Shown here: one piece after another, positions 45,450 to 60,875 of the stretch | How positions within the stretch are numbered: the stretch's first letter is position 1 | Layout of the letters: every line of letters begins with the position of its first letter | Assembly: GCA_028819845.1 (NCBI GenBank) | Contig: JAPPKS010000034.1 | Span: forward strand, 50,217-114,216 | Direction of reading: 5' to 3' | DNA length: 64,000 nt | Source: Candidatus Poribacteria bacterium | Lineage (GTDB): Bacteria > Poribacteria > WGA-4E > PCPOR2b | Program-made: the position numbers and the translations under genes | Notes under the pieces: generated by a model | What the model saw: the letters and a program-made list of their open reading frames with translations, nothing else | What the model was told of the DNA's origin: nothing | Databases searched by the model: none

Positions 45450-45765
45450 GCCTGCCGTAGTCACGTCAAATTCGACAGTGGCAAATTCACTTTCTATACT
45501 CAGGACAGCTTTCTCGAAGCGTATAAAAATCTATCAACCCTGCGCCGATGGGACAATTTCTATCCGCGACTCTATTCCATTGCTTCAAATCAAAGCAAGA
45601 ATTTTCATTGTGCCCAAGAAAGACAAGTCGTCACTGCGCTTCTTGCTGAACACGTTTAAAATCATGGAATGGACACGAATGTCGAGGTGTTGCGGGGCAT
45701 CCGAATGTCATCCATCAAAGACTCGTACGAGCCAAAACGAAACTGAAAAAAACTTAAGTGAGGAG
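45450..45765 (+). pseudogene. Decayed ECF sigma domain of a sigma-propeller fusion gene
   Basis: Read in one frame, the DNA gives QDSFLEAYKNLSTLRRWDNF and YSIASNQSKNFHCAQERQVV, almost identical to the sigma2 region of the gene at 57984. That frame meets TAA at 45657-45659. A different frame then gives PNVIHQRLVRAKTKLKK, the end of sigma4. About 50-60 codons of sigma4 and the first half of sigma2 are missing. The frame continuous with the downstream WD40 gene (open from 45478) reads nonsense here. The left limit is approximate. Confidence 0.8.
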
Positions 45766-47805
45766 ATGATTCAAATGATGCACACAGCAATTGCCGAACG
45801 AAAATTACAACCGGGATTCACCGCGCATGTAGTAGAGTTAATCAGTGACGCCAAGATTCAAACCGCACCCCACAAAACCGCGCTGCCTTTGGGGTTATCT
45901 GCTGCGGGCGGGTTAATTCTCCTGCTCTTAAGTTTAAGCCTTCCACACAGCCCGCTTTATCCGGTGGGCGAATGGCTGGGTGGCTCGCTGCCGCTAAAAA
46001 CACAGGTTGTCGAGGATGGTGAACTCCCCGTAGACGTGGAAGCGACTCGAGTTGCGATACTCGGTACTAAAGGGGAAGATGACGATTTTGGACGGAGGCC
46101 AAAACCGCCCAGGTTACCTGCCGCCGTTGGATTTCAAGAATATCAGACGTGGGGTTTGCCGGAAAATGCCATCGCCCGCTTTGAAAAAGGGAAAATTAGT
46201 CAAGGTGACAGAGTAATAGCGTTTTCGCCCGATGGATTACATCTCGCCGTTGCAACGACCATTGGTGTCTGGCTTTATGACGTGCAGACATCTCGTGAAC
46301 TCGCGCTATTCGCCGGCGGTCGGTCCGGCTGGCTTCATGCTGTGGCATTCTCGCCCGATGGCACGCTACTCGCTGCGGGTGACGATGATGACATTAAACT
46401 CTGGGAGGTCGCAACGGGAAACAATATCACCACACTCACCGGGCATACGGAGTTGCCAAGATCTGTGGCGTTCTCGCCCGATGGCGCAAAACTCGTTTCA
46501 GGGTCAATAGATAAAACCGTCAAACTGTGGGAAGTTACAACGGGAGAAAACATCGCCACGCTTAAAGGACATACAGATGCAATCAAATCCGTAGCGTTTT
46601 CACCCGACGGTCTAAAAATCGTTTCAGGGTCCGGTGATAAAACCGTCAGAATGTGGGATGTCGCAACGAGAAAGAGTATCGACGCACTCAAAGGGCATAA
46701 GGATCGCATATCCTCCGTGGCATTTTCGCCTGACGGTTCAATACTTGTCTCAGGATCAGTGAATGGAACTGTTAAACTGTGGGAGGTTGTGTCGGGAAAA
46801 AATATTAAGACTTTCCGAGGGCAAGGAGATGGATTGTACAAGTCCCTCGCGGTCTCACCCAATGGTGCGCTAGTTGCGCATACCACCGGAGACCTTGGAA
46901 CGATTGAACTGCTGGATGTTTCAACAGGAAAAAATATCGTCACGAATTTCAGCCACGCGGGTTCAGTCAACGCTGCGGTGTTCTCGCCTGACGGCACAAA
47001 ACTCGCTATCCCTTTGCTGGCATCACAAGGTGTCAGACTGTGGGACATTGAGACAGGACTAAATACCGGCACACTCAAGCATAGCGGGTGGATTAACTCT
47101 GTTGCTTACTCAATGGACGGCAGGAAACTCGCCTTGGGGTCATGGGCTTCCATCCAACTGTGGGATGTCGAGACAAGAAAAGAGATTGCTGCATTCCAAA
47201 AGCACACGGGTTGGGTCAGTTCTGTGATGTTCTCATCCGACGGCGCGATTCTCGCCTCGGGCGCAGAATCCGTTAAGCTCTGGGACATCGCGACAGGAAA
47301 AAACGTCGCTACACTCACAGCGCATACGGATAGGGTCTCCGCCGTCGCGTTCTCACCCGATGGCACAATACTTGCCTCGGGGTCCGGCGATAAAACCGTA
47401 AAGCTATGGGAGGTTTCGTCTGGAAAAAATATCGCGACGCTCGCTGGGCATATGGATAGAGTGTCCTCTGTGGCGTTCTCACCCGATGGTACAAGAATCG
47501 CCTCGGGGTCATGGGATAACACAATCAAACTGTGGGAGATCTCAACGGGAAAAAATATCGCTACACTCGAGCATGAGGATAGGATCGCCTCTGTGGCATT
47601 TTCACCCGATGGCACGAAACTCGCCTCGGGATCGTGGGCTTCCGTCCAATTGTGGGAGGCCTCGACAGGCAATATCATCACTTCATTTCAAGGCGATCCG
47701 CATCCAGTCACCTCCGTTGCATTCTCGCCGGACGGCACAAAACTAGTTGCGGCGTCAATGGCGGGAACGGTGGTAATGTGGAATTTAGAAACGGATGATG
47801 ATTGA
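45766..47805 (+). CDS. Membrane-anchored WD40 protein, sigma-less paralogue
   Basis: About 679 aa. The frame is open from 45478, but residues before 45766 are an out-of-frame reading of a dead sigma domain. GAGGAG at 45760-45765 lies 9 nt before ATG 45775, and ATG 45766 is the first in-frame codon matching the paralogues. Layout: a linker (ERKLQPGFTAHVVELISDAK), one membrane helix (LPLGLSAAGGLILLLLSLSL), then at least 12 WD40 repeats of the AFSPDGxxLASGS...VKLW type. Linker and helix are nearly identical to those of the two intact sigma-propeller proteins, whose propellers are of a different (TolB) type. It should sit in the inner membrane with the propeller outside. A terminator hairpin follows at 48088-48131. 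It could be a sensor without output or a decaying gene. Confidence 0.8.
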   Translation: MIQMMHTAIAERKLQPGFTAHVVELISDAKIQTAPHKTALPLGLSAAGGLILLLLSLSLPHSPLYPVGEWLGGSLPLKTQVVEDGELPVDVEATRVAILGTKGEDDDFGRRPKPPRLPAAVGFQEYQTWGLPENAIARFEKGKISQGDRVIAFSPDGLHLAVATTIGVWLYDVQTSRELALFAGGRSGWLHAVAFSPDGTLLAAGDDDDIKLWEVATGNNITTLTGHTELPRSVAFSPDGAKLVSGSIDKTVKLWEVTTGENIATLKGHTDAIKSVAFSPDGLKIVSGSGDKTVRMWDVATRKSIDALKGHKDRISSVAFSPDGSILVSGSVNGTVKLWEVVSGKNIKTFRGQGDGLYKSLAVSPNGALVAHTTGDLGTIELLDVSTGKNIVTNFSHAGSVNAAVFSPDGTKLAIPLLASQGVRLWDIETGLNTGTLKHSGWINSVAYSMDGRKLALGSWASIQLWDVETRKEIAAFQKHTGWVSSVMFSSDGAILASGAESVKLWDIATGKNVATLTAHTDRVSAVAFSPDGTILASGSGDKTVKLWEVSSGKNIATLAGHMDRVSSVAFSPDGTRIASGSWDNTIKLWEISTGKNIATLEHEDRIASVAFSPDGTKLASGSWASVQLWEASTGNIITSFQGDPHPVTSVAFSPDGTKLVAASMAGTVVMWNLETDDD

Positions 47806-48729
47806 GGCTACGATGCCGATAAACCCTCGTCTCACAGTGCAATATCCAGACACTCCGCATCGGATTGCAGGAAAACTCAAAGTATAGTATTAGTCAAAAC
47901 GAAAATTTACGTACGCGAGTGTTTCCATCGAAGAGTTCTCCCCCTTGCCAAGGGGGAGTTAGAGGGGGTCTAGACCAAGCGAGAAATCGTCGCCAATGTC
48001 TACTATCACCTTGACCATAAAAACAACTCAAAGCACCAAGAAAGGAACATTTTTTATCTTGGTTGCCATGACTATCGCACACCTCGCGGCGTCCATTTGC
48101 TCCAATTTCACGGCAGACGGACGCCTTTTTCTTTTCCATACCGTACGTAGAACACATCTGTATTGCATGCTTTTTGAAGCCGTTACGACTAAAAATTATA
48201 AATTTACTCATTGGTTTGTGGGAGAGGCTTCCTAGCCTCGATTATAATTCAGCCAATTCCTCCTTGTGCAAACGTCAACCTAAATGACTATACCCTTTGT
48301 CCCTCAATATATTCATCAGTGCATTATCAATTCCTTGTGAGCGGACGCAACATCCTAAAATCCTGTAAATCCTGATTCAGACATCGGCATCGCCCAAAGC
48401 AAATGTGCCTTTTTTTTGAAAAAAAATTTACCCGATGTAATAATTCGATTGTGGGCGGCGTCTATGACTACGGATAATCATACTTTTTGTCCGAATCGCG
48501 GACTAAACCGCCTCCAGTGTGAATCTCGTCGACGGATTCGTTGGACGACATCGGAATCTTTCCGATGCAAACTTAGGTATATTAGCAGCCAATACGGTCT
48601 GATTCACCTTTTTTCATGGGGACCGCGGTTTTGAGGGTTGCGGCACCTCTGAGCATACAGTCACGGATAAACATGGCTCCACCGATAAGGGAATACAAAC
48701 CTAATCATTCGCATAAGGAGTTTACACAT
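47806..48729. other. Long spacer with terminator and duplicated upstream segment
   Basis: No gene is supported in ~920 bp. It contains a perfect hairpin CTCCCCCTTG-C-CAAGGGGGAG (47938-47958), a terminator (48088-48131) and a GTGGGAGAGGCTTCC palindrome (48218-48244). The tract 48280-48470 resembles the spacer before the gene at 57984 (TCCTGTAAATCCTGATTCAGAC, TTACCCGATGTAATAATTCG). The last ~100 bp lead into the TonB-like gene. Confidence 0.55.
48088..48131 (+). terminator. Rho-independent terminator after the WD40 paralogue
   Basis: GGCGTCCATTTGC and the imperfect complement GGCAGACGGACGCC form a stem followed by TTTTT. It closely matches the terminator at 57660-57702, behind a related gene. 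Confidence 0.7.
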
Positions 48730-49569: not shown

Positions 49570-50346
49570 GTGCAATCGCTGAATGAAAAAACTAAGATAA
49601 AAACACAGTTTGTTGATGCAGTCCAGATGAACGATGCCGCGTTATTTCAGGCACCAATCATTTTCATGGAGCCGATACCTGGGGGCTCAAATATAAGTCC
49701 AGAACACCTGACACGAGTGTTCAACTCTCACAGTAATCCAATTTGGAATACGAGGCGACCGGGTGGATTAAACAAATACACTGACGCTGAAGTTCAAAGT
49801 CTGCGAGAGTATGTGCTGCATCGTGGGGGATTCATCTATATGGCCACACATGGAAATGCGAAAAACGCAATGATAGGCACAAGGAAGGTACTTCGGAATC
49901 TCCTGCCAGAGCATCAACTCGGCATTGTTCGCAACAATCATCCGATATACAACACTTATTATTCGCTAAATGGCCCCTTACGATTTCCTTTGCGCAAGAT
50001 TACCTTCATGGGAGACCATAGCATTCCCCTTCACTTTGGACGTTATTCCGAACTGCAAGGTATCACTATTGATGGGCGTCTTGCCGTCTTAGTTGATACC
50101 GAACAGATGATGCATGTAATCGATGGAGCAGTTCAGAAACCCTTCTATGGCAAGTTCGAGAATCAGAATCAAATTCTGGCGGAACTTGCGCCCCACGCAG
50201 CGCGCCAACTAATCAACATTGTCATCTATGCGATTACGCATGGGAATATTTCGGATTACAGCAACTACATTCCCGAAACGGTTTTGAATGATTCAGTCGA
50301 CAACGGTTTTTGGAAGAATGCACCAAATGTCACTCTGTTTCGATAG
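49570..50346 (+). CDS. DUF4159 domain, downstream half of a split gene
   Basis: 258 aa if started at GTG 49570; the frame is open back to the TGA at 49519. The DUF4159 fold is marked by APIIFMEPIPGG, LREYVLHRGGFIYMATHG, KITFMGDHSIPL and the C-terminal AARQLINIVIYAITHG. These domains belong to a class I glutamine-amidotransferase-like group and are often exported with a TonB-like N-terminal half, as here. No good ribosome-binding site precedes GTG 49570, which supports a pseudogene or a readthrough product rather than an independent gene. Function unknown. Confidence 0.7.
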   Translation: MQSLNEKTKIKTQFVDAVQMNDAALFQAPIIFMEPIPGGSNISPEHLTRVFNSHSNPIWNTRRPGGLNKYTDAEVQSLREYVLHRGGFIYMATHGNAKNAMIGTRKVLRNLLPEHQLGIVRNNHPIYNTYYSLNGPLRFPLRKITFMGDHSIPLHFGRYSELQGITIDGRLAVLVDTEQMMHVIDGAVQKPFYGKFENQNQILAELAPHAARQLINIVIYAITHGNISDYSNYIPETVLNDSVDNGFWKNAPNVTLFR

Positions 50347-50887
50347 TTCTGTCCCTGCTGCAACCCCCTTTTCATACTGGGTTGCTATTGCTCGGAAATG
50401 ACGCCGCAATTACTTGCCTTACATACGAAAAAGAGATAAGGTACACGTTGAAACCCGATAATTATAGTTCCTACGAAAGTTACCTAGTAATCGCTCTTGA
50501 ACTCTTCTATAGGCTTTAACCCGTGACACTTGCGCTACAAAGTTGTATCAACGCTGCAACAGCTCTCGCCAATACAATCTTGCCTGTTCCCAGACCCGGG
50601 CGGATGATGTTTTGAAAACTAGCATTGGCACACAATTTGCTTGATACGAATCCACAGAAATTTTCGCTTCCGTCATTGCTATTATGAGTGAAAGGTAAGT
50701 TGAATAACTAAAGACGCAGGACAAACCGAAACCTTTCAGTACGAGGGCGGAAAAAGATTAAATGACCTCTCTCGAAAACGGATTTGGATTATTCCATCAG
50801 GTCTAACAGGTTCTAAATCCGAGGTTGTGCGAAAAAAGACAAATTGAAAGGATGCTTCCCCTAATTCAAAGATGGAGGATTATTCGG
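50347..50887. other. Spacer before the exported WD40 gene
   Basis: About 540 bp. Two short frames at the left are not supported by homology or ribosome-binding sites. No repeat, hairpin or promoter stands out. Confidence 0.4.
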
Positions 50888-53113
50888 ATGAAGTACGCTA
50901 TGTTTTTCACGCTTAGCTTAATGTTCATTTCCGCTCTATGTCCACCGCTCAGCGTCGCCCAAGATTATTCGAAATGGAGTCTACCGGAAGGGGCTAAAGT
51001 GCGCATTGGAAAAGGTATTATAAGTGAGATACAGTTTTCGCCCGACGGCAATCGGCTTGCGGTGGCTAGCAGTATTGGTATTTGGCTGTACAATACATTA
51101 ACCCATCAAGAAATTGCACTGCTCACCGGGCACACGTTTGGGGTCGAGAGCGTAGCGTTCAGTCCTGATGGCGGCACTATTGCAAGTGGGGGTGCAGACC
51201 GTACCGTCCGACTGTGGAACGCCGATTCAGGCGAACTCCTGCTAACGCTCACCGGGCACACGTTTGGGGTCGAGAGCGTAGCGTTCAGTCCGGATGGCAG
51301 CGCTATCGCAAGTGGGGGCGCAGACCGTACCGTCCGACTGTGGAACGCCGATTCAGGCGAACTCCTGCAAAAGTTTACCGGCATAGGCTCCGCGGTCGAG
51401 AGCGTAGCGTTCAGTCCTGATGGCGGCACCATCGCAGGTGGGTGTGAGGACGCCGCCATTCGTCTGTGGGACGCCGATACGGGAGAACGCCTTCATACGC
51501 TCACCGGGCATTCGAATCCGATCGAAAGCGTTGCATTCAATCCGGATGGACGCACCATCGCCAGCGCCAGCGCCAGCTGGCGTAATGATAATACCATCCG
51601 ACTGTGGAACGCCGATACAGGAGAACACCTGCACACGCTCGCCTGGGGTAATACTGGATTCAAGAGCGTAGCGTTCAGTCCTGATGGCGGCACTCTTGCC
51701 AGTGGGGGTACGGGCGGTAGCATCCATCTGTGGGACGCAAATACGGGCGATCATCTGCGAAGGTTCACCCGCCATACGGATTGGGTCATTAGCGTTGCAT
51801 TCAATCCCGATGGACGCACCATCGCCAGCGCCGGCGGGCGTAATGATAATACCCTCCGCCTGTGGGACGCTCACAGAGGAGGACAACTGCAAGCGTTCAC
51901 TGGGCATACGTCTAGGGTCGATTGCGTTGCGTTCAGTCCCAATGGCGGCACCGTCGCTAATGGGAGCGAGGATGCTACTATCCGATTGTGGGACGCCAGC
52001 ACGGGAAAACACCAGAAAAGGTACAGGGTGCACATGTCTGATGTTCTTAGCGTTGCGTTCAATCCCAAGGGTGGTTCCATCGTAAGTAGTAGTTGGGACA
52101 ATACCATCTGGTTGACGGACACCGATACGGACAAACATTTGCTATCGCTAATAGGACATAGAGATGAAGTCCTGAGTGTTGCGTTTAGTCCCAATGGACG
52201 CCTGATCGCAAGCGGTGGAGGTTTGGACCGTACCATCCGTCTGTGGGACGTTGATACGGGAAGACAGTTGCGGGAGTTCACCGGACATTCGGGTTGGGTC
52301 AATAGCGTTGTATTCAGTCCCGATGGACTTATCATCGCCAGCGGAAGTGATGATAATACCATCCGACTGTGGAACACCCATAGGATAAAACACAAGCGAA
52401 CACTTAGAGGGCATACGGGTGCGGTTCGGAGCGTTGCGTTTAGTCCCGATGGACGCATCATCGCGAGTGGGGGTTGGGACCGTACCATTCGTCTGTGGGA
52501 CGCTGATGCGGGAAAGCAGTTGCTAGAGCTGACCGGACATAGGTCTGCGGTCAATAGCGTTGCATTCAGTTCCGATGGCACCACCATCGCAAGTGGAAGC
52601 GGGGACACTACCATCCGATTGTGGGAAGCCGATACAGGAAAACACCTGCTAACGCTCACTGGGCATACGGATGAGGTTCGAAGCGTCGCGTTTAATCCAA
52701 ATGGACGCACCATCGCCAGTGGGAGTTGGGACGGTACCGTGTTGTTGTGGATAAATCCCTTTTCAACCGCATTTGCGGTAGAACCGTCGGAAAAACTATC
52801 CACGTCGTTGGGAAACATCAAACGGACAGCGTTGCTGCAGAATTATCCGAATCCGTTCAACCCTGAAACGTGGATCCCGTACCAGTTGGCAGTCGATGCC
52901 CTTGTGATGTTGAAAATCTATGACCAGAGCGGTCAAATCGTACGTAAGCTAGACGTTGGACGCAAAAAAGCGGGAATCTACCGAGGCAAAGCAAAAGCCG
53001 CGTATTGGGACGGCCGTAATCAAAACGGAGATCCCGTCACAAGCGGCACCTATTTCTACCAACTCCGCGCGGGTGATTACACCGCTATACGGCGGATGGC
53101 AATCGTCAAGTAG
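50888..53113 (+). CDS. Exported WD40 protein with FlgD/sorting-type C-terminus
   Basis: 741 aa from ATG 50888 (GGAGG 10 nt upstream; the frame is open from 50825). A signal peptide (FFTLSLMFISALCPPLSVAQ) is followed by ~14 WD40 repeats of about 42 aa each (SVAFSPDGGTIASGG...IRLWDADTG), enough for two seven-bladed propellers. The C-terminal ~95 residues form a FlgD-Ig/CTD module: LLQNYPNPFNPETWIPYQLA, a KIYDQSGQIVRKL strand, then YWDGRNQNGDPV and TYFYQLRAGDY. This ending is typical for surface proteins of Poribacteria-like genomes and resembles type IX sorting domains. The first two repeats are 126-bp near-copies at DNA level. It may be a surface adhesin or scaffold. Confidence 0.88.
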   Translation: MKYAMFFTLSLMFISALCPPLSVAQDYSKWSLPEGAKVRIGKGIISEIQFSPDGNRLAVASSIGIWLYNTLTHQEIALLTGHTFGVESVAFSPDGGTIASGGADRTVRLWNADSGELLLTLTGHTFGVESVAFSPDGSAIASGGADRTVRLWNADSGELLQKFTGIGSAVESVAFSPDGGTIAGGCEDAAIRLWDADTGERLHTLTGHSNPIESVAFNPDGRTIASASASWRNDNTIRLWNADTGEHLHTLAWGNTGFKSVAFSPDGGTLASGGTGGSIHLWDANTGDHLRRFTRHTDWVISVAFNPDGRTIASAGGRNDNTLRLWDAHRGGQLQAFTGHTSRVDCVAFSPNGGTVANGSEDATIRLWDASTGKHQKRYRVHMSDVLSVAFNPKGGSIVSSSWDNTIWLTDTDTDKHLLSLIGHRDEVLSVAFSPNGRLIASGGGLDRTIRLWDVDTGRQLREFTGHSGWVNSVVFSPDGLIIASGSDDNTIRLWNTHRIKHKRTLRGHTGAVRSVAFSPDGRIIASGGWDRTIRLWDADAGKQLLELTGHRSAVNSVAFSSDGTTIASGSGDTTIRLWEADTGKHLLTLTGHTDEVRSVAFNPNGRTIASGSWDGTVLLWINPFSTAFAVEPSEKLSTSLGNIKRTALLQNYPNPFNPETWIPYQLAVDALVMLKIYDQSGQIVRKLDVGRKKAGIYRGKAKAAYWDGRNQNGDPVTSGTYFYQLRAGDYTAIRRMAIVK
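51124..51375 (+). repeat. 126-bp tandem repeat inside the WD40 gene
   Basis: Units 51124-51249 and 51250-51375 differ at only a few positions and encode the repeat beginning HTFGVESVAFSPDG. This points to recent blade duplication. Confidence 0.8.
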
Positions 53114-54027: not shown

Positions 54028-54765
54028 TGCAAATCAAATGAAAGCTCCATTGACTTGGACTACGATGTTGGGTTATCATCGTCGGATGTGAAACTGCCTT
54101 TAATCCCATCCGGCAATAGCACCGGAATCTCCAACCGATGCGCCGACACAAAACGTCACACCGTTTTAGGAGTTTGGCGACTGCAGGCGATAGTTGTTTT
54201 TAAGGATGGGGTGGAAACGCAGAGACTAGTTGATAGTTCAGTCGAATCGTTTTCTTAGCTGTCACTCGAACGGGATGGAATCTTTGAGGCAATGCGCAAA
54301 TTTCCCATTGAAGACGTGTCACACCTAAGTTTGCTTGAATCGCTTGAATTGGAACAAATCCAAGAAATCGTAATTTCCTACCGCGGCAAACATCGCATCC
54401 GTGCAGATCAACTCCGGCTAAACCTGATTGTAAATGGGACGGAGCCGTAGGATGCACCGCAAATTGAATCAGACTTTGCAGACAATTCTGATTTTTGATG
54501 CTCGCGTATGATATTTGGTATAATGATGGAGGTTCGCTAAATTATTCCCTTTCTGAAGATGGCAACCAACTTGAATTGAGAAAGGAAAAAGGGGAGTACA
54601 TGGTCAAATTTATCCACCACCGACCTAAAACCCACTAACATTTCAGTATAGTTTGACGATACCAGCATTACTGAAGATTGCGGCACCGTCCTTAATCGAA
54701 CAAGCAACCCCACCTCGTTTTGAATCTCAAACTGCAACTTGCTCTTAAAATGCGAAAGAACACCT
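54028..54765. other. Spacer with degenerate coding traces
   Basis: Two traces read on the plus strand. Frame 54055-54450 is interrupted by a single in-frame TAG (54256-54258), after which LLESLELEQIQEIVISYRG and NLIVNGTEP look protein-like. A second short frame from ATG 54498 to TAA 54638 encodes 46 aa (MLAYDIWYNDGGSLNYSL...), also coding-like. Neither has a recognised relative, so they may be relics. No terminator or promoter was found. Confidence 0.35.
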
Positions 54766-57606
54766 ATGCACACGAGTGACAGGCAAATCGTTCATGAATG
54801 TCTTTCGGGCAACCCGGAGGCATTCGCCGAGTTAGTTGACAGATATAAAGTTCGAATTTTCGCGCTCGTGTATGCCAAAGTCGGTCAGTTTCAAGATGCA
54901 GAAGACCTCACTCAAGATGTGTTTTTCAACGCTTACAAAAAACTCTCCACGCTGAAACGATGGGACAATTTCTATGCGTGGCTTCATTCAAGCGCTGTGA
55001 ACCGATGTAATGATTTTCATCGTGCCCAATTTAGACAGATTGACGCAGCGTACGTTGCCGACCAATCCGACAGCCATCGAGCAGATATGGACGCGCACGC
55101 AAAAAACCTGAGAAACCAACGAATCCATGAAGCACTGGCTTCCCTCCCTGAGATGCACCGTCAAGTTTTAGTGCTCCGTTACATGGCTGGGCTAAAGAGC
55201 AAAGAGATTGCCGAGACGCTGCGGGTGTCTCCGAATACAATCAATCAGCGGCTGATGCGAGCTAGAGCGAAGCTCAAAACTGTCCTGAGTGAAGACCTGG
55301 TCTCAATGATGCCCACCGCCCTTGCCGACCGTAAATTATCTCCGGGATTTACGGCCCGCGTAGTGGAGTTAATCAGAGACGCGAAGATCCAAACGGCGCC
55401 CCACAAGACCGGGTTACCCGTAGGGTTATCTGCTGCAGGTGGGTTAATTCTCCTAGTCTTAAGTTTTAGCCTTCCACAAAACCCGATTCATCCGCTTCGC
55501 AACTGGCTCGGTGGACCGCTGCCTTCCAAATCACAGGTTACCGAAGATGGCAAGCTCCCTATTGATGCGGAAGTGACGCGAGTTGCAATACTTGCGGCCG
55601 ATGGAACAGATGGCGGTTTCGCTCCGAAACCGCCTACGCCCGAATCGCTTGCCGCCATCAGTCAGACCGAACAAACTGACCCGCCCAATGAGGAGATAAC
55701 GGTAACAGGCATACATCTCCCCGATGATTTTGATATTATGTGGTACGCCGACATTTCACCCGATGGCAGAGAAATGGTTTATGTAAGTAGACGGAATGAA
55801 TCATGGACTATGCAACTCGCCACTTTTCCACTCGTCGGGTTAGAGGCAATGGCGCCAAACGAACAACGCCGCAAAGTCATCTTACAAGAAGAGCCAAGCG
55901 AGGCAGATTATTTTCAACCCAAATGGTCGCCTGATGGCAGATGGATCGCGTTTTATCGTCAAGGAGCGAAATCACCCGAAAAAGATGTCGATGTGTGTGT
56001 AGTTCCCGTGACAGGAGGCGAAATGCGGCTTCTTGCAACAACCGATTCCGATAGACATCCGGGCGGACTGAGTTGGTCGCCCGACAGCGCGGAACTCGCC
56101 TTCGTCAAATGGCGCGGCGCGGCTGCTGATATTTACATCGTTTCGCTCGACACAGGTGCAGTGCGTCCTTTCACGACGGATGGAAAAGAAAACACCGAGC
56201 CCACTTGGTCGCCTGATGGTGAATGGATTGCCTATTCATCAAAACGAGGTCTCTGGATTGATAGCCTTCGTGTATGGCGGCAACCTGTGCGGGATGGTGA
56301 AGCAACAGTTAATGAAGGGCTTCATCTCATCCGCCCACCCATTCACTCACCCGACGGAAAGTGGGTTGCCTACACGAACTACTTACCCGATGGAAAAAGC
56401 GGTTTTATTGCATCGCGAGTCAACGAACAGGGTGAGCTAGCAGGCGAACCAATTTTCCTCAAAGCGGCGAGGCTACAGGTGAGCGCAAGACCGTTGCAGT
56501 GGACGCCGGACGGAAAACTAATCGTACTGCAAGAAGCTTACACAGAGATGACCTATGCCTTCAGTAAAAAAAGCGGTGAACGGCGCCGCTTGAGTTCTAA
56601 TCCGGAGTTTTGGTTTGAAGGCGCACAGTGGCAATCAGACGGGAATCGGCTTTTTCTTGGTTCTAGCAAAGACCGGCGCCCCGGTGTTTTGGACATCGAG
56701 ACCGGTCGATTCACCGATCTACCCATAGAAATCCCAGAAGGGATGTTTTTCGGTCAATCAACCCTTTCGCCCGATGAAAAGTGGGTTGCATTTGTGCGGA
56801 TTCATCCCAAGATGTCCCATAAGCTAGTGGGCGGAGTACCTCAAGTAAGTGCACATCTTCACATCATGCCGGTGGGAGGTGGAACGTCCAAACAGTTGGC
56901 GCAAACTGAGTTTTATGGTATGAATCCCCGCTGGTCGCCCGACGGTCAAAAAATCGCGTTCATCAACGCGAATTTCGCAGCATCAGCGGGTTTTGAGTCA
57001 AAACTCTGTGTCGCTTCTGTATCAGATAGTCAGGTGAAAACATTTACAGATACCGAACGGTGCATGGGAGCAGCTTGGTCGCCCGATGGAACGATGCTCG
57101 CGTATCTCCGCTTGAAGGGTAAGGGACAGGTTTTAGATTTGGATTTCGATGAGACAGAGGTTGACATCTATCTTGTTCCGGCAACGGGCGGAGAATCCAA
57201 GCGAATAGCCGCTCCACCCAATAGTCCACCCGAAGGGGAGATATTGCTGCCTTGGACACCCTTCGGGAGACTCTCCTGGACTCCTGATGGAAAGCGGTTG
57301 ACGTTCAAGATAGGCGGGCAAGCGTGGGTCATGTCAATCGACGGTGGGGAACCGAAGCCTATGCGAAGAAATTATATCCCGTCGAGTTGGTCATCGGATG
57401 GAGCGTCTTATCTCGCAATCGGACGAAACGGCGAATTGCAGCGGGTATCTCTCGACGGTACGACAATCGACGAATTGCCGTTTCGCGTTCCGGCGGACGC
57501 ACGTCCGCTTTCAATGTCGCCCGACGGTGAAACCATTCTGTATCGGCAGGTTGATTCGGGAACACAGTGCTGGAGCATTGATGTGAGTTATCTAGTCAAT
57601 CAATAG
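54766..57606 (+). CDS. ECF sigma factor fused to a membrane helix and TolB-like propeller (1)
   Basis: 946 aa from ATG 54766 (frame open from 54739; the alignment with the next gene favours this ATG). Sigma2 is at residues ~15-90 (FALVYAKVGQFQDAEDLTQD, RWDNFYAWLH), and sigma4 at ~120-175 (LPEMHRQVLVLRYMAG, SKEIAETLRVSPNTINQRL). A linker with PHKTGLPVG leads into one membrane helix (~218-238, GLSAAGGLILLVLSFSL). From ~300 on are TolB/PD40 repeats (PKWSPDGRWIAFYRQ, PTWSPDGEWIAYSS). The sigma domain would be cytosolic and the propeller periplasmic, so the protein joins sensor and sigma factor in one chain. No separate anti-sigma gene is adjacent. A terminator follows at 57660. How the sigma part is released (for example by proteolysis) is unknown. 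Confidence 0.9.
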   Translation: MHTSDRQIVHECLSGNPEAFAELVDRYKVRIFALVYAKVGQFQDAEDLTQDVFFNAYKKLSTLKRWDNFYAWLHSSAVNRCNDFHRAQFRQIDAAYVADQSDSHRADMDAHAKNLRNQRIHEALASLPEMHRQVLVLRYMAGLKSKEIAETLRVSPNTINQRLMRARAKLKTVLSEDLVSMMPTALADRKLSPGFTARVVELIRDAKIQTAPHKTGLPVGLSAAGGLILLVLSFSLPQNPIHPLRNWLGGPLPSKSQVTEDGKLPIDAEVTRVAILAADGTDGGFAPKPPTPESLAAISQTEQTDPPNEEITVTGIHLPDDFDIMWYADISPDGREMVYVSRRNESWTMQLATFPLVGLEAMAPNEQRRKVILQEEPSEADYFQPKWSPDGRWIAFYRQGAKSPEKDVDVCVVPVTGGEMRLLATTDSDRHPGGLSWSPDSAELAFVKWRGAAADIYIVSLDTGAVRPFTTDGKENTEPTWSPDGEWIAYSSKRGLWIDSLRVWRQPVRDGEATVNEGLHLIRPPIHSPDGKWVAYTNYLPDGKSGFIASRVNEQGELAGEPIFLKAARLQVSARPLQWTPDGKLIVLQEAYTEMTYAFSKKSGERRRLSSNPEFWFEGAQWQSDGNRLFLGSSKDRRPGVLDIETGRFTDLPIEIPEGMFFGQSTLSPDEKWVAFVRIHPKMSHKLVGGVPQVSAHLHIMPVGGGTSKQLAQTEFYGMNPRWSPDGQKIAFINANFAASAGFESKLCVASVSDSQVKTFTDTERCMGAAWSPDGTMLAYLRLKGKGQVLDLDFDETEVDIYLVPATGGESKRIAAPPNSPPEGEILLPWTPFGRLSWTPDGKRLTFKIGGQAWVMSIDGGEPKPMRRNYIPSSWSSDGASYLAIGRNGELQRVSLDGTTIDELPFRVPADARPLSMSPDGETILYRQVDSGTQCWSIDVSYLVNQ

Positions 57607-57983
57607 CGGATCCTTCAAAGTACACATAAGATTCGCCCAAATATCGGGCGTTCAATAACGGCGTCCATTTGCCCCAGATTTACGGCAAATGGACGCCTTT
57701 TTCGTTTCTGTATGGTTAATCACTGAATGCACATTCTCACATACTCACCCCAAATGCTTTCATCGTTGCACAATTAATTCCCATGTAAGAAGGCGCAATA
57801 TCCTGCAAATCCTAAAATCCTGTAAAACCTGATTCAGACAGAGTACAATATTCACAGGAAAACCTTCAATTCCACTGTAGCGGTTGCAACCTTTCTCCTC
57901 AAAAAAATCAACCCGATGTCAGAATTCGGGGTTGAGCGGTTACTATAAAGGCAGTAACAATCATCTCATTCGAGGGAGTGCCA
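57607..57983. other. Terminator and upstream region of the second sigma-propeller gene
   Basis: It holds the terminator at 57660-57702 and the shared AATCCTGTAAA(A)CCTGATTCAGAC phrase near 57808-57839. A GGTTGCAACC and a CAACCCGATGTC block lie about 20 bp apart before the gene (~57885-57920); an ECF-type -35/-10 pair is conceivable but only weakly supported. Confidence 0.5.
57660..57702 (+). terminator. Rho-independent terminator after sigma-propeller gene 1
   Basis: GGCGTCCATTTGCC (57660-57673) and GGCAAATGGACGCC (57684-57697) form a perfect 14-bp stem with a 10-nt loop, followed by TTTTT. Confidence 0.9.
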
Positions 57984-60875
57984 ATGCACACTAGAGATGG
58001 CCATATCGTTCATCAATGTCTTTCGGGAAACACGGAGACATTTGCCCTGTTGGTTGATAAATATAAGGAGCGCATCTTCGCGCTTGTGTACGCGAAAGTC
58101 GGACAGTTTCAAGACGCTGAAGATTTAACTCAGGATGTCTTTCTTGAAGCGTATAAGAACCTGTCAACCCTGCGGCGATGGGATAACTTCTATCCGTGGC
58201 TCTATTCCATTGCTTCGAATCAGTGCAAGAATTATCACCGCGCCCAAAAAAGACAGGTCGTCACGGTTCACCTTGCCAATCAGGATGAAAATCATCGAAT
58301 GGACGTTGAGGCGCACTCGGAAAAACTGAAAAATGAACGGGTTCACGACGCATTGGCTTCTCTCCCTGAGATGCACCGTCAAGTGTTAATGCTCCGTTAC
58401 ATGGCTGGCATGAAAAGCAAGGAGATTGCAGAAACGTTGCGGGTGTCTCCAAACACCATCGATCAGCGGCTCGTGCGAGCCAGAGCAAAATTAAAAACAA
58501 TTTTAAGTGAGGAGATGATTCCAATGATACGCACTGCTTTTGCCGAAAGAAGATTACAGCCGGGATTTACCGCCCGCGTGGTGGAGTTAATAAGTGACGC
58601 AAAGATTCAAACCGCGCCCCACAAGACCGCTCTGCCTTTGGGGCTGTCCGCAGCAGGCGGCGTAATTCTCCTACTCTTGATTTTGAGCTTTCCGCACAGC
58701 CCTCTTTATCCGTTGGGCGAATGGCTCGGCGGCTCTCTGCCTCTGAATACACAGGTTGTCGAGGATGGCGACCTCCCCGTAGATGCGCAAGCGACTCGAG
58801 TTGCGATACTCGGTGCTGAAGGGGAAGACGGTGATTTTGGACGGAGACCAAAACCGTTAAAGGCAGCCACAGCCATCAACCAAACTGAGGAAATAACAAC
58901 AACGGGCATAATTCTCCCAAATGATGCATCTTGGGATATGGACATTTCGCCCGATGGCACGAAGATGGTTTACCTCGGCAGAGGAGTTACATCCTTAGGG
59001 TATGAGTTCCAACTTATTGTGTCGCCTTTAGTAGACGCATCGAGCGATGTCTCGCCTAAACAAACGGTTCTAGTGCAAGGAGAGGGTGCAACAACACAAT
59101 ATTTTCAACCTAAATGGTCGCCTAACGGGATGTGGGTCGCCTTTTATCGTCAGGAACATCAATATCCGAGGGCGGAAGGTTATGGAAGTGACATTGATTT
59201 ATATCTTATTCCTGCGGCAGGCGGCAGAATGCGCTTCCTCGCCCGGACCGACTCTCAAAAGCACTCGCGTGGACTCAGTTGGCCACCTGATAGCAAAGAG
59301 ATTGCGTTTGTCAAATGGACAGGAGAGAATACGGATATTAGCATCGTGTCGCTAGACACCGGAGTAGTACGCCCATTTACAACGGACGGAAAAGGGAACA
59401 CCTCGCCATCGTGGTCGCCTGATGGAAACTGGATTTTCTATTTATCGCAACGCCCTTCATCTCGGGAAACATATCTCGGCAAGCCTGTCTGGAAACAGCC
59501 TGTTGATGGCGGTGTGGCAACACCGATAAACGTTGTTGCCATACAAGACGAGTTCGTTTATTCACCCAACGGAAAATGGGTTGCCCGCAACAACATTGCC
59601 GTTACGAACGGCAGTTTCTCGTTTCCCGGCATCGCTGTTGACCACTTCAACGAACATGGCGACTTAGCAGGAGATCCAATTTTACTTGAACCGGAGAAAT
59701 TTCAATATGCACCGAAACTTTTGCGGTGGACGCCGGGCGGAAAAATCATCATTCTACAAGAGGATCGCATAAAGGTTACCTACGCTGCTCTCAAAACAAA
59801 AAGCGGTACACTATGCTACCGCAGTGAAGCTGCCTATTTTAACGTCCAGACAAAAAGTGGCGCACGACGCTACCTCAATACTGATACGAGCATTTACGAC
59901 GTTCCGCGTTTTCCGACGAGTATTCCGCTTTTTCCGCTTACAGATCCGCAACTTATAGGTGTACAGTGGCTCTCTGGCGGGAATCGTCTGTTTTTCCCAT
60001 CTAGCGTGAACTTGCCTGGCAGTGGTGCGAGATGCGGGATTTTAGACATTGAAACCAACCGTTTTACACGCAGTCAACTTCTTGAATTTTTCAAGGAAAT
60101 AAATTTTGACGAATCTGCCCTTTCTCCTGATGAAAAACAAATCGCATTTGTGATTATGGTTAAACACCCCGAAACTAAACGCCAGTTGTACATCATACCG
60201 GTGCCAGGTGGAGCACCCAGACAGTTGACGCATGGCGAATCGTGGCCCTTCAATCTACGCTGGTCGCCTGATGGTCGAACAATCGCTTTCATCAATGGGC
60301 TAAGGAGAAGAACTGAGATGCCAAGCAGTCCGGAGTCGCAACTTTGCGTCGTTTCCGTATCGGATGGTAAACTGAAGATACTGGCAGATTCGGGCATGTC
60401 CGGCGAACCAGCTTGGTCCCCCGATGGTACAACACTGGCATACAAAAAATCGCCGCCCGACAACATACACATTGTACCCGCAACCGGTGGGCAGTCAAGG
60501 CAAATTACGAACACTCCAAACGAAGGAGAATCGGAAATCCATTGGACACCCGATGGCAAACAAATCACCTACAAAACAAACGACGCGGCTTGGTGGGTTA
60601 TATCAATTAACGGCGGGCAACCGAAGAAGTTGCATAGGAATTATATTCCGTCGAGCTGGTCATCGGATGGAGCAACGTATCATGCATTCGGACCGCATGG
60701 GAAGTTGCAACGCGTATCGTCAAATGGCGCGATACCCTCTGAACTCTCGGCTCGTGCTCCGATGAATGCTCGACCACTCTCTATGTCTCCCGATGGCGAA
60801 ACAATTCTACTACGACAAGTCGATTCGGTAAAGTCGTGTTGGAGCATTGATGTGAGTCATCTGGACAGCCAATGA
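57984..60875 (+). CDS. ECF sigma factor fused to a membrane helix and TolB-like propeller (2)
   Basis: 963 aa from ATG 57984 (AGGGAG 5 nt upstream; GTG 57978 lies within the ribosome-binding site). It has the same architecture as the gene before it, including TLRRWDNFYPWLYSIASNQ in sigma2 and the sigma4 helix-turn-helix SKEIAETLRVSPNTIDQRL. The linker ERRLQPGFTARVVELISDAK is followed by the membrane helix (~LPLGLSAAGGVILLLLILSF) and TolB blades (PSWSPDGNWIFYLS, LRWSPDGRTIAFIN, PAWSPDGTTLAYKK). Its propeller has a longer middle section than paralogue 1. The C-terminal phrase MSPDGETILLRQVDS...CWSIDVS is shared with paralogue 1. These two and the WD40 paralogue form a family of three within 15 kb, all on the plus strand. 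Confidence 0.9.
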   Translation: MHTRDGHIVHQCLSGNTETFALLVDKYKERIFALVYAKVGQFQDAEDLTQDVFLEAYKNLSTLRRWDNFYPWLYSIASNQCKNYHRAQKRQVVTVHLANQDENHRMDVEAHSEKLKNERVHDALASLPEMHRQVLMLRYMAGMKSKEIAETLRVSPNTIDQRLVRARAKLKTILSEEMIPMIRTAFAERRLQPGFTARVVELISDAKIQTAPHKTALPLGLSAAGGVILLLLILSFPHSPLYPLGEWLGGSLPLNTQVVEDGDLPVDAQATRVAILGAEGEDGDFGRRPKPLKAATAINQTEEITTTGIILPNDASWDMDISPDGTKMVYLGRGVTSLGYEFQLIVSPLVDASSDVSPKQTVLVQGEGATTQYFQPKWSPNGMWVAFYRQEHQYPRAEGYGSDIDLYLIPAAGGRMRFLARTDSQKHSRGLSWPPDSKEIAFVKWTGENTDISIVSLDTGVVRPFTTDGKGNTSPSWSPDGNWIFYLSQRPSSRETYLGKPVWKQPVDGGVATPINVVAIQDEFVYSPNGKWVARNNIAVTNGSFSFPGIAVDHFNEHGDLAGDPILLEPEKFQYAPKLLRWTPGGKIIILQEDRIKVTYAALKTKSGTLCYRSEAAYFNVQTKSGARRYLNTDTSIYDVPRFPTSIPLFPLTDPQLIGVQWLSGGNRLFFPSSVNLPGSGARCGILDIETNRFTRSQLLEFFKEINFDESALSPDEKQIAFVIMVKHPETKRQLYIIPVPGGAPRQLTHGESWPFNLRWSPDGRTIAFINGLRRRTEMPSSPESQLCVVSVSDGKLKILADSGMSGEPAWSPDGTTLAYKKSPPDNIHIVPATGGQSRQITNTPNEGESEIHWTPDGKQITYKTNDAAWWVISINGGQPKKLHRNYIPSSWSSDGATYHAFGPHGKLQRVSSNGAIPSELSARAPMNARPLSMSPDGETILLRQVDSVKSCWSIDVSHLDSQ

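Follow-up and report, generated by a model that had tools for sequence, protein, structure and literature searches.

Sigma factors joined to a predicted membrane anchor and exchangeable outer domains in Candidatus Poribacteria

Two adjacent sigma factor fusions

The window analysed here, a stretch of 64,000 nucleotides from a Candidatus Poribacteria genome, contains on its forward strand two adjacent intact genes, as a first-pass annotation of the sequence had described and as their reading frames bear out. Gene 1 is uninterrupted from an ATG at 54766 to 57606 and encodes 946 amino acids; gene 2 is likewise uninterrupted from an ATG at 57984 to 60875 and encodes 963. An alternative TTG start is possible for gene 1 at 54739, although we placed the start at the ATG because it matches the M1 conserved among homologues. 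Both products show the same order of parts, namely sigma2, sigma4, a linker of ~40 residues, a single candidate membrane helix and a propeller region of the TolB/PD40 type, and the domain search proposed in the annotation found Sigma70_r2, Sigma70_r4_2 and PD40 above curated Pfam cut-offs in both. In gene 1, sigma region 2 (residues 23-88; 54832-55029; PF04542, 2.2e-11) and sigma region 4 (residues 118-170; 55117-55275; PF08281, 1.6e-15) are followed by a predicted cytoplasmic linker (55288-55410) with two predicted short helices (176-187 and 193/195-205), a predicted membrane helix (residues ~216-236; 55411-55473; hydropathy 1.96), a juxtamembrane stretch (residues 237-315; 55474-55710; AlphaFold2 pLDDT < 50) and an outer region of approximately two PD40/TolB-type propellers (55738-57585; PD40, 1.3e-32). 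The corresponding parts of gene 2 are sigma region 2 (residues 23-90; 58050-58253; PF04542, 7.3e-15), sigma region 4 (residues 118-170; 58335-58493; PF08281, 8.9e-15), the predicted membrane helix (residues ~216-236; 58629-58691; hydropathy 2.39) and outer PD40/TolB-type propellers (58911-60863; PD40, 3.1e-25).

The sigma part has the composition of an ECF sigma factor, with sigma2 and sigma4 and neither sigma3 nor sigma1.1; it exceeds the NCBIfam cut-off for sigma70-ECF in both proteins and matches the solved ECF sigma factors SigH/AlgU, SigW and RpoE. The best solved sequence match of the outer part is to TolB chains, and NCBIfam TolB is found below its equivalog cut-off (146 and 113 bits for genes 1 and 2, against 343 bits). 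By fold, the outer part of gene 1 approximates two tandem propellers (Foldseek on the AlphaFold2 model). It is next to impossible that an assembly error or frameshift has joined separate sigma and propeller genes: we found nothing in favour of this, and the uninterrupted fusion recurs in many independent assemblies, single-contig genomes included, so that a frameshift between the two parts is excluded by homologues in many other genomes. Adjoining the fusions, at 50825-53113, is a gene for a 762-residue WD40-repeat protein with a C-terminus that resembles the FlgD-like or sorting ends of exported proteins.

A sigma factor of this type usually needs a separate membrane partner, the anti-sigma factor. 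No anti-sigma gene adjoins gene 1 or gene 2, in agreement with the first reading of the locus. A search of this genome for anti-sigma genes of the zinc-finger type recovered six zf-HC2 genes (C35:17.5k, C19:95.7k, C20:116k, C21:41k, C30:263k and C33:54k), each lying a few hundred bases or less from a short, stand-alone sigma gene, and 0/6 lie beside a fused sigma. The genome also encodes a site-2 protease (Peptidase_M50).

Linker, membrane segment and predicted topology

The linker contains a conserved motif, L.P.FT....E.I, and a second motif, LPS.TQV...G.IPVD, is conserved in the juxtamembrane stretch. There is no cysteine in the linker (residues 174-222), where a search for an anti-sigma domain gave no Pfam match of note; a zinc-finger anti-sigma domain fused within it was rejected on both grounds. 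The only conserved cysteines, at positions 12 and 81, belong to the sigma2 side, and sigma4 has none. The AlphaFold2 model of gene 1 shows a well modelled sigma part, two linker helices at pLDDT around 76-87 and an outer part that is stranded throughout; confidence is low from residue 207 to 315, a stretch that includes the membrane segment. The sigma core matches sigma chains taken from anti-sigma complexes (Foldseek), a likeness that, in a comparison made without a stand-alone sigma control, may hint weakly at an off-state.

The first-pass annotation had proposed one membrane helix, and we find a single strongly hydrophobic segment in each protein at residues ~216-236 (the hydropathy values above are 19-residue Kyte-Doolittle means). 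Of 67 homologues examined in detail, which include a few overlapping fetches of one gene, 65 have a hydrophobic segment 40-60 residues after sigma4, and in 61 it is the sole one. Positive charge is biased across it: in 60 non-redundant cores, the stretch of 25 residues that precedes the segment contains on average 3.25 Lys and Arg residues, against 1.92 in the 25 residues after it, and 42 cores favour an N-in orientation as opposed to 6 that favour the reverse. The type of appended domain agrees with N-in/C-out, since anchored members carry outer-type domains and most of those sampled without a segment have ankyrin, leucine-rich, SecA or nuclease domains. This split is not absolute, as L079 has thioredoxin and PD40 domains yet no segment. 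Taken together, hydropathy, charge bias and domain type predict that the fused proteins are oriented N-in/C-out, and the poorly modelled stretch at residues 237-315 is a candidate region for a first proteolytic cut.

In an alternative arrangement the hydrophobic segment would not be a membrane helix, and a cytoplasmic propeller would bind partners and alter the conformation of sigma; such a mode has been proposed for ECF57, which carries WD40-like C-terminal extensions (PMC8999054), and the low AlphaFold2 confidence for the segment could be accommodated by it. We nevertheless consider it improbable, given hydropathy of 1.96-2.39 at one place, retention of the segment in 65/67 homologues, the positive-inside bias, and the cytoplasmic repeats on most of the sampled unanchored relatives, the PD40-bearing L079 excepted.

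A family across the phylum with exchanged outer domains

When related genomes were surveyed, as the first-pass annotation had suggested, the sigma core was found to be encoded in 59/59 Poribacteria genomes (profile A1, E <= 1e-25), although a match at this threshold need not always mean an anchored fusion. The number of core matches per genome ranges from 2 to at least 39, and among the matches listed most sit in ORFs of 700-1300 residues. All the closest matches on named genome contigs are from Candidatus Poribacteria. The present genome has sigma region 4 at 31 sites, of which about a dozen fall within ORFs of more than 400 residues. The proposal that a single chain combines sensor, anchor and output is well supported, and it holds across the phylum.

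TolB-type propellers, which the annotation had emphasised, are confirmed for genes 1 and 2 but are not a trait of the family, being one of at least seven classes of outer domain. These comprise PD40/TolB (genes 1 and 2, L181), WD40 (L033, L078, L187), Kelch (L071, L072, L074, L076, L184, L186), M16 peptidase (L077, L193), VPS10/BNR (L034, L175, L176, L191), CarboxypepD_reg repeats, some with a redoxin-like end (L031, L032, L087, L185), and C-type lectin (L032:8621); a GH32-like stretch is present in L186:829. A separate subgroup carries DUF4159 (L099, L101). The window itself contains a stand-alone DUF4159 gene at 49570-50346, this being the domain that forms the C-terminus of the sigma fusion in the latter two Poribacteria sequences.

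When 143 sigma domains were placed in a tree, a single clade (SH-aLRT 86) united 43 anchored Poribacteria members and contained no short sigma and no planctomycete member. The seven outer-domain classes require at least 14 changes on this tree, against a mean of 24 when shuffled, a count that is sensitive to a tree built from ~175 residues and to a few weak class assignments (L123, L164). It follows from this minimum that exchange of the outer domain has recurred.

Other arrangements were encountered among sequences without a membrane segment. On a Lentisphaerae-titled contig, L234:620-3160 has sigma2-sigma4 in frame with SecA DEAD and P-loop domains, and in sequences from Poribacteria and another phylum (L103, L104, L229 and L037:4862-6475) sigma is joined to long ankyrin or leucine-rich arrays. 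We also noted a poribacterial fusion of sigma with a bifunctional nuclease (BFN) domain (L088:1861-3180).

Terminator and candidate promoters

An intrinsic terminator with a 14-bp stem and a T-run lies between the two genes on the forward strand (57660-57702), and the RNA fold of 57640-57710 has an energy of -26.9 kcal/mol (z -4.45). Because the hairpin and T-run are strong, genes 1 and 2 are probably separate transcripts. Stretches upstream of gene 2 at 57659-57840, namely the hairpin of the terminator and another short segment, recur at 48087-48383 with 88-95% identity and are likely to be dispersed intergenic repeats.

Many family genes are preceded by an ECF-like motif, TGTAACnTTT ... GCGTC, for which the promoter model is TGTAACnTTT..GCGTCTAA. 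A split-half motif run settled on a local optimum rich in A/T and was set aside in favour of a split by subfamily. With a model built from two subfamilies, 46% of the upstream regions in the third exceed the 95th percentile of the controls (p about 1e-6); training in the reverse direction transfers weakly, with 17% of tests above that percentile. WD40-type orthologues from several genomes have a common upstream footprint, TGTGA.ATTT...CGTCT, which can be written as TGTGACATTT-N13-CGTCTAA. These motifs suggest autoregulation of many members. There is no recognisable promoter motif upstream of gene 1. Upstream of gene 2, a conserved block on the forward strand (57915-57950; GATGT.A.AATTCGGG...G.GCGG.T.CTATA.AG) is a candidate divergent ECF promoter; it is diverged, is common to gene 2 and its two relatives, and occurs once in the genome (<= 3 mismatches). 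A regulon search gave no exact match to the consensus promoter in this genome and no related pattern within the window. Genes 1 and 2 may themselves be autoregulated.

Decayed members, selection and discordant histories

The window contains a third, decayed member on the forward strand (45478-47805), in which an open frame encodes linker, membrane segment and WD40 repeats without an intact sigma domain. A remnant of its sigma region 2 (45498-45674), 78% identical to the gene 2 core by tblastn, lies in another frame with a stop codon, and sigma4 has for the most part been deleted. The linker, membrane segment and juxtamembrane stretch (45754-46158) are common to this member and gene 2, with 77% amino acid identity, and at the DNA level the two are 84% identical over ~400 bp (45709-46107). 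The outer domain, in contrast, is of the WD40 type although the portion from linker to juxtamembrane stretch matches the PD40-bearing gene 2, so that an exchange of outer domains is seen inside the window. This gene could be either a pseudogene or a receptor that has lost its output. A second example occurs elsewhere in the same genome (L036:8390-10624, contig C20), where an anchored M16-peptidase-like member has a sigma domain broken by a stop codon and a frameshift.

Sigma and propeller have discordant histories, to judge from an orthologue-like pair (G036:C126 and G015:C58) with sigma domains that are 91% identical and propellers that are 42% identical, against 72% and 65%, respectively, for gene 2 and G015:C58. 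Between genes 1 and 2 identity is 73% in sigma, which is among the most conserved regions, and 52% in the propeller. The sigma dN/dS ratio is about 0.1 in most comparisons (NG86 range about 0.08-0.16) and that of the propeller about 0.2-0.3, ratios that are rough since several of these comparisons come close to saturation at synonymous sites. The sigma part is under purifying selection. This bears on a further possibility, that sigma is an evolutionary leftover and that the proteins are now merely membrane-anchored propellers, as might be supposed from the two members of this genome that have lost sigma and kept the outer part open. The idea is very improbable in the light of the sigma domain that genes 1 and 2 and their homologues keep, its identity and low dN/dS relative to the propeller, and the ECF-like promoter motif that many family genes retain.

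A proposed route from envelope to promoter

It follows logically from the joined architecture that the sigma domain must either act at the membrane or be freed by proteolysis, and we lean towards a receptor with a cytoplasmic sigma and an outer propeller from which sigma would be released in two proteolytic steps. The protein would be a single-pass membrane receptor bearing a complete ECF sigma factor at its cytoplasmic end and sensor-like propellers outside. Before a signal, tethering would hold sigma off, possibly with help from the short linker helices; that the linker resembles no known anti-sigma domain counts against the scheme. The ectodomain may meet a ligand or partner, or report envelope damage, upon which the juxtamembrane stretch would be cut and the ectodomain removed or trimmed, leaving a shortened stump as a substrate for an intramembrane site-2 protease. 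Freed sigma would then bind the RNA polymerase core and direct a regulon, including in many members its own promoter. Topology, sensing, the off-state, both cuts, release and the regulon are what we infer for the fused sigmas, and the two-step release is proposed by analogy with IutY, in which Prc is followed by RseP.

The main rival is that sigma stays in the membrane and is exposed by ectodomain-driven dimerisation or by movement of the linker. Regulators of the ToxR/CadC type, which recruit RNA polymerase at the membrane, provide a model for such tethered activation; the membrane segment and linker are conserved, the two linker helices are modelled at pLDDT around 76-87, and no observation demands cleavage. 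We regard it as unlikely, however, as a membrane-held holoenzyme would on general grounds be hindered in moving along DNA, and as proteolysis is required by IutY, the nearest single-chain sigma to have been characterised, which is active after truncation (PMC5411451, PMC8999054).

A wider reading seems to us evenly balanced, namely that Poribacteria carry out much of their envelope sensing via a receptor class of their own, in which a constant sigma-linker-membrane cassette, combined with many unrelated ectodomains and with each receptor reading its own promoter, replaces separate sigma/anti-sigma pairs. If so, these receptors would have a role comparable to that of histidine kinases elsewhere, with one protein carrying an outside signal to promoter choice. 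Nature would have joined at least seven kinds of outer domain to one cassette, which would provide existing components for biosensors made of a single gene and an approach to what the uncultured, often sponge-associated Poribacteria sense. The question is also raised of how sigma stays silent without a recognisable anti-sigma domain.

Comparison with known systems

Single-chain sigma/membrane proteins are already known, namely IutY, SCO4117 of Streptomyces and ECF48/52/53 (PMC8999054), so that any uniqueness implied by the first-pass annotation does not stand. IutY of Pseudomonas putida (ECF243) combines sigma and a periplasmic domain in one chain and is freed by Prc and RseP; RseP is required for every variant that retains periplasmic residues, and Prc for a periplasmic part of more than about 50 residues (PMC5411451). 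Like IutY, the poribacterial proteins join a cytosolic ECF sigma, a membrane segment (here predicted) and a periplasmic part in one polypeptide, and have no separate anti-sigma factor. The periplasmic part of IutY, in contrast, is described as an anti-sigma domain of TonB-receptor signalling, where the present proteins have a large propeller region; a FecR-type periplasmic anti-sigma domain gave no Pfam match in genes 1 and 2 up to E = 0.05. Proteolysis, moreover, is demonstrated for IutY and proposed for the poribacterial proteins. SCO4117 and ECF48/52/53 of Actinobacteria similarly fuse sigma to a membrane helix and an extracytoplasmic domain (here predicted), but differ in that a zinc-finger anti-sigma domain separates sigma from the helix. 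The likeness to TolB is confined to the PD40-type propeller repeats, as the fused proteins are predicted to be membrane-anchored, are joined to sigma and fall far below the equivalog cut-off.

In ECF57 and in planctomycete fusions, too, sigma continues into a long C-terminal extension that bears WD40-like or similar domains, and ECF sigma factors of Tuwongella immobilis, from a planctomycete group described as mostly WD40-linked, were recovered from detergent fractions (PMC8567305). The WD40-like C-terminal repeats of ECF57 have counterparts here (PD40 in genes 1 and 2, WD40 in relatives), but the cysteine link between sigma2 and sigma4 of ECF57 is absent. Lacking these cysteines, a FecR-type domain and a zinc finger, the family is filed under none of ECF57, ECF243 and ECF48/52/53, a separation made on described features with a tree that holds no ECF57 reference sequences.

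An earlier comparison of other phyla had found an anchored long sigma ORF only in one planctomycete (L197). In three large planctomycete genomes, however, 20/20 long sigma ORFs retrieved show a hydrophobic segment beyond the sigma part, and uniqueness to Poribacteria was dropped. CarboxypepD_reg is present in most of the eight long sigma ORFs scanned, so that these genomes too contain sigma/CarboxypepD_reg fusions with a membrane-segment candidate. The planctomycete fusions lie outside the 43-member Poribacteria clade in the sigma tree, but a single clade of both is not rejected (AU p 0.19); an independent origin is favoured by the tree, though not established. The word sigma is absent from the main text of the Poribacteria genome paper of Kamke 2014 (PMC3909097), and in the open-licence literature searched we found no description of a Poribacteria-wide modular sigma clade, which does not prove that there is none. 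The fusion of sigma to a membrane sensor is thus a known idea; what seems to be new is a modular clade that extends across the Poribacteria.
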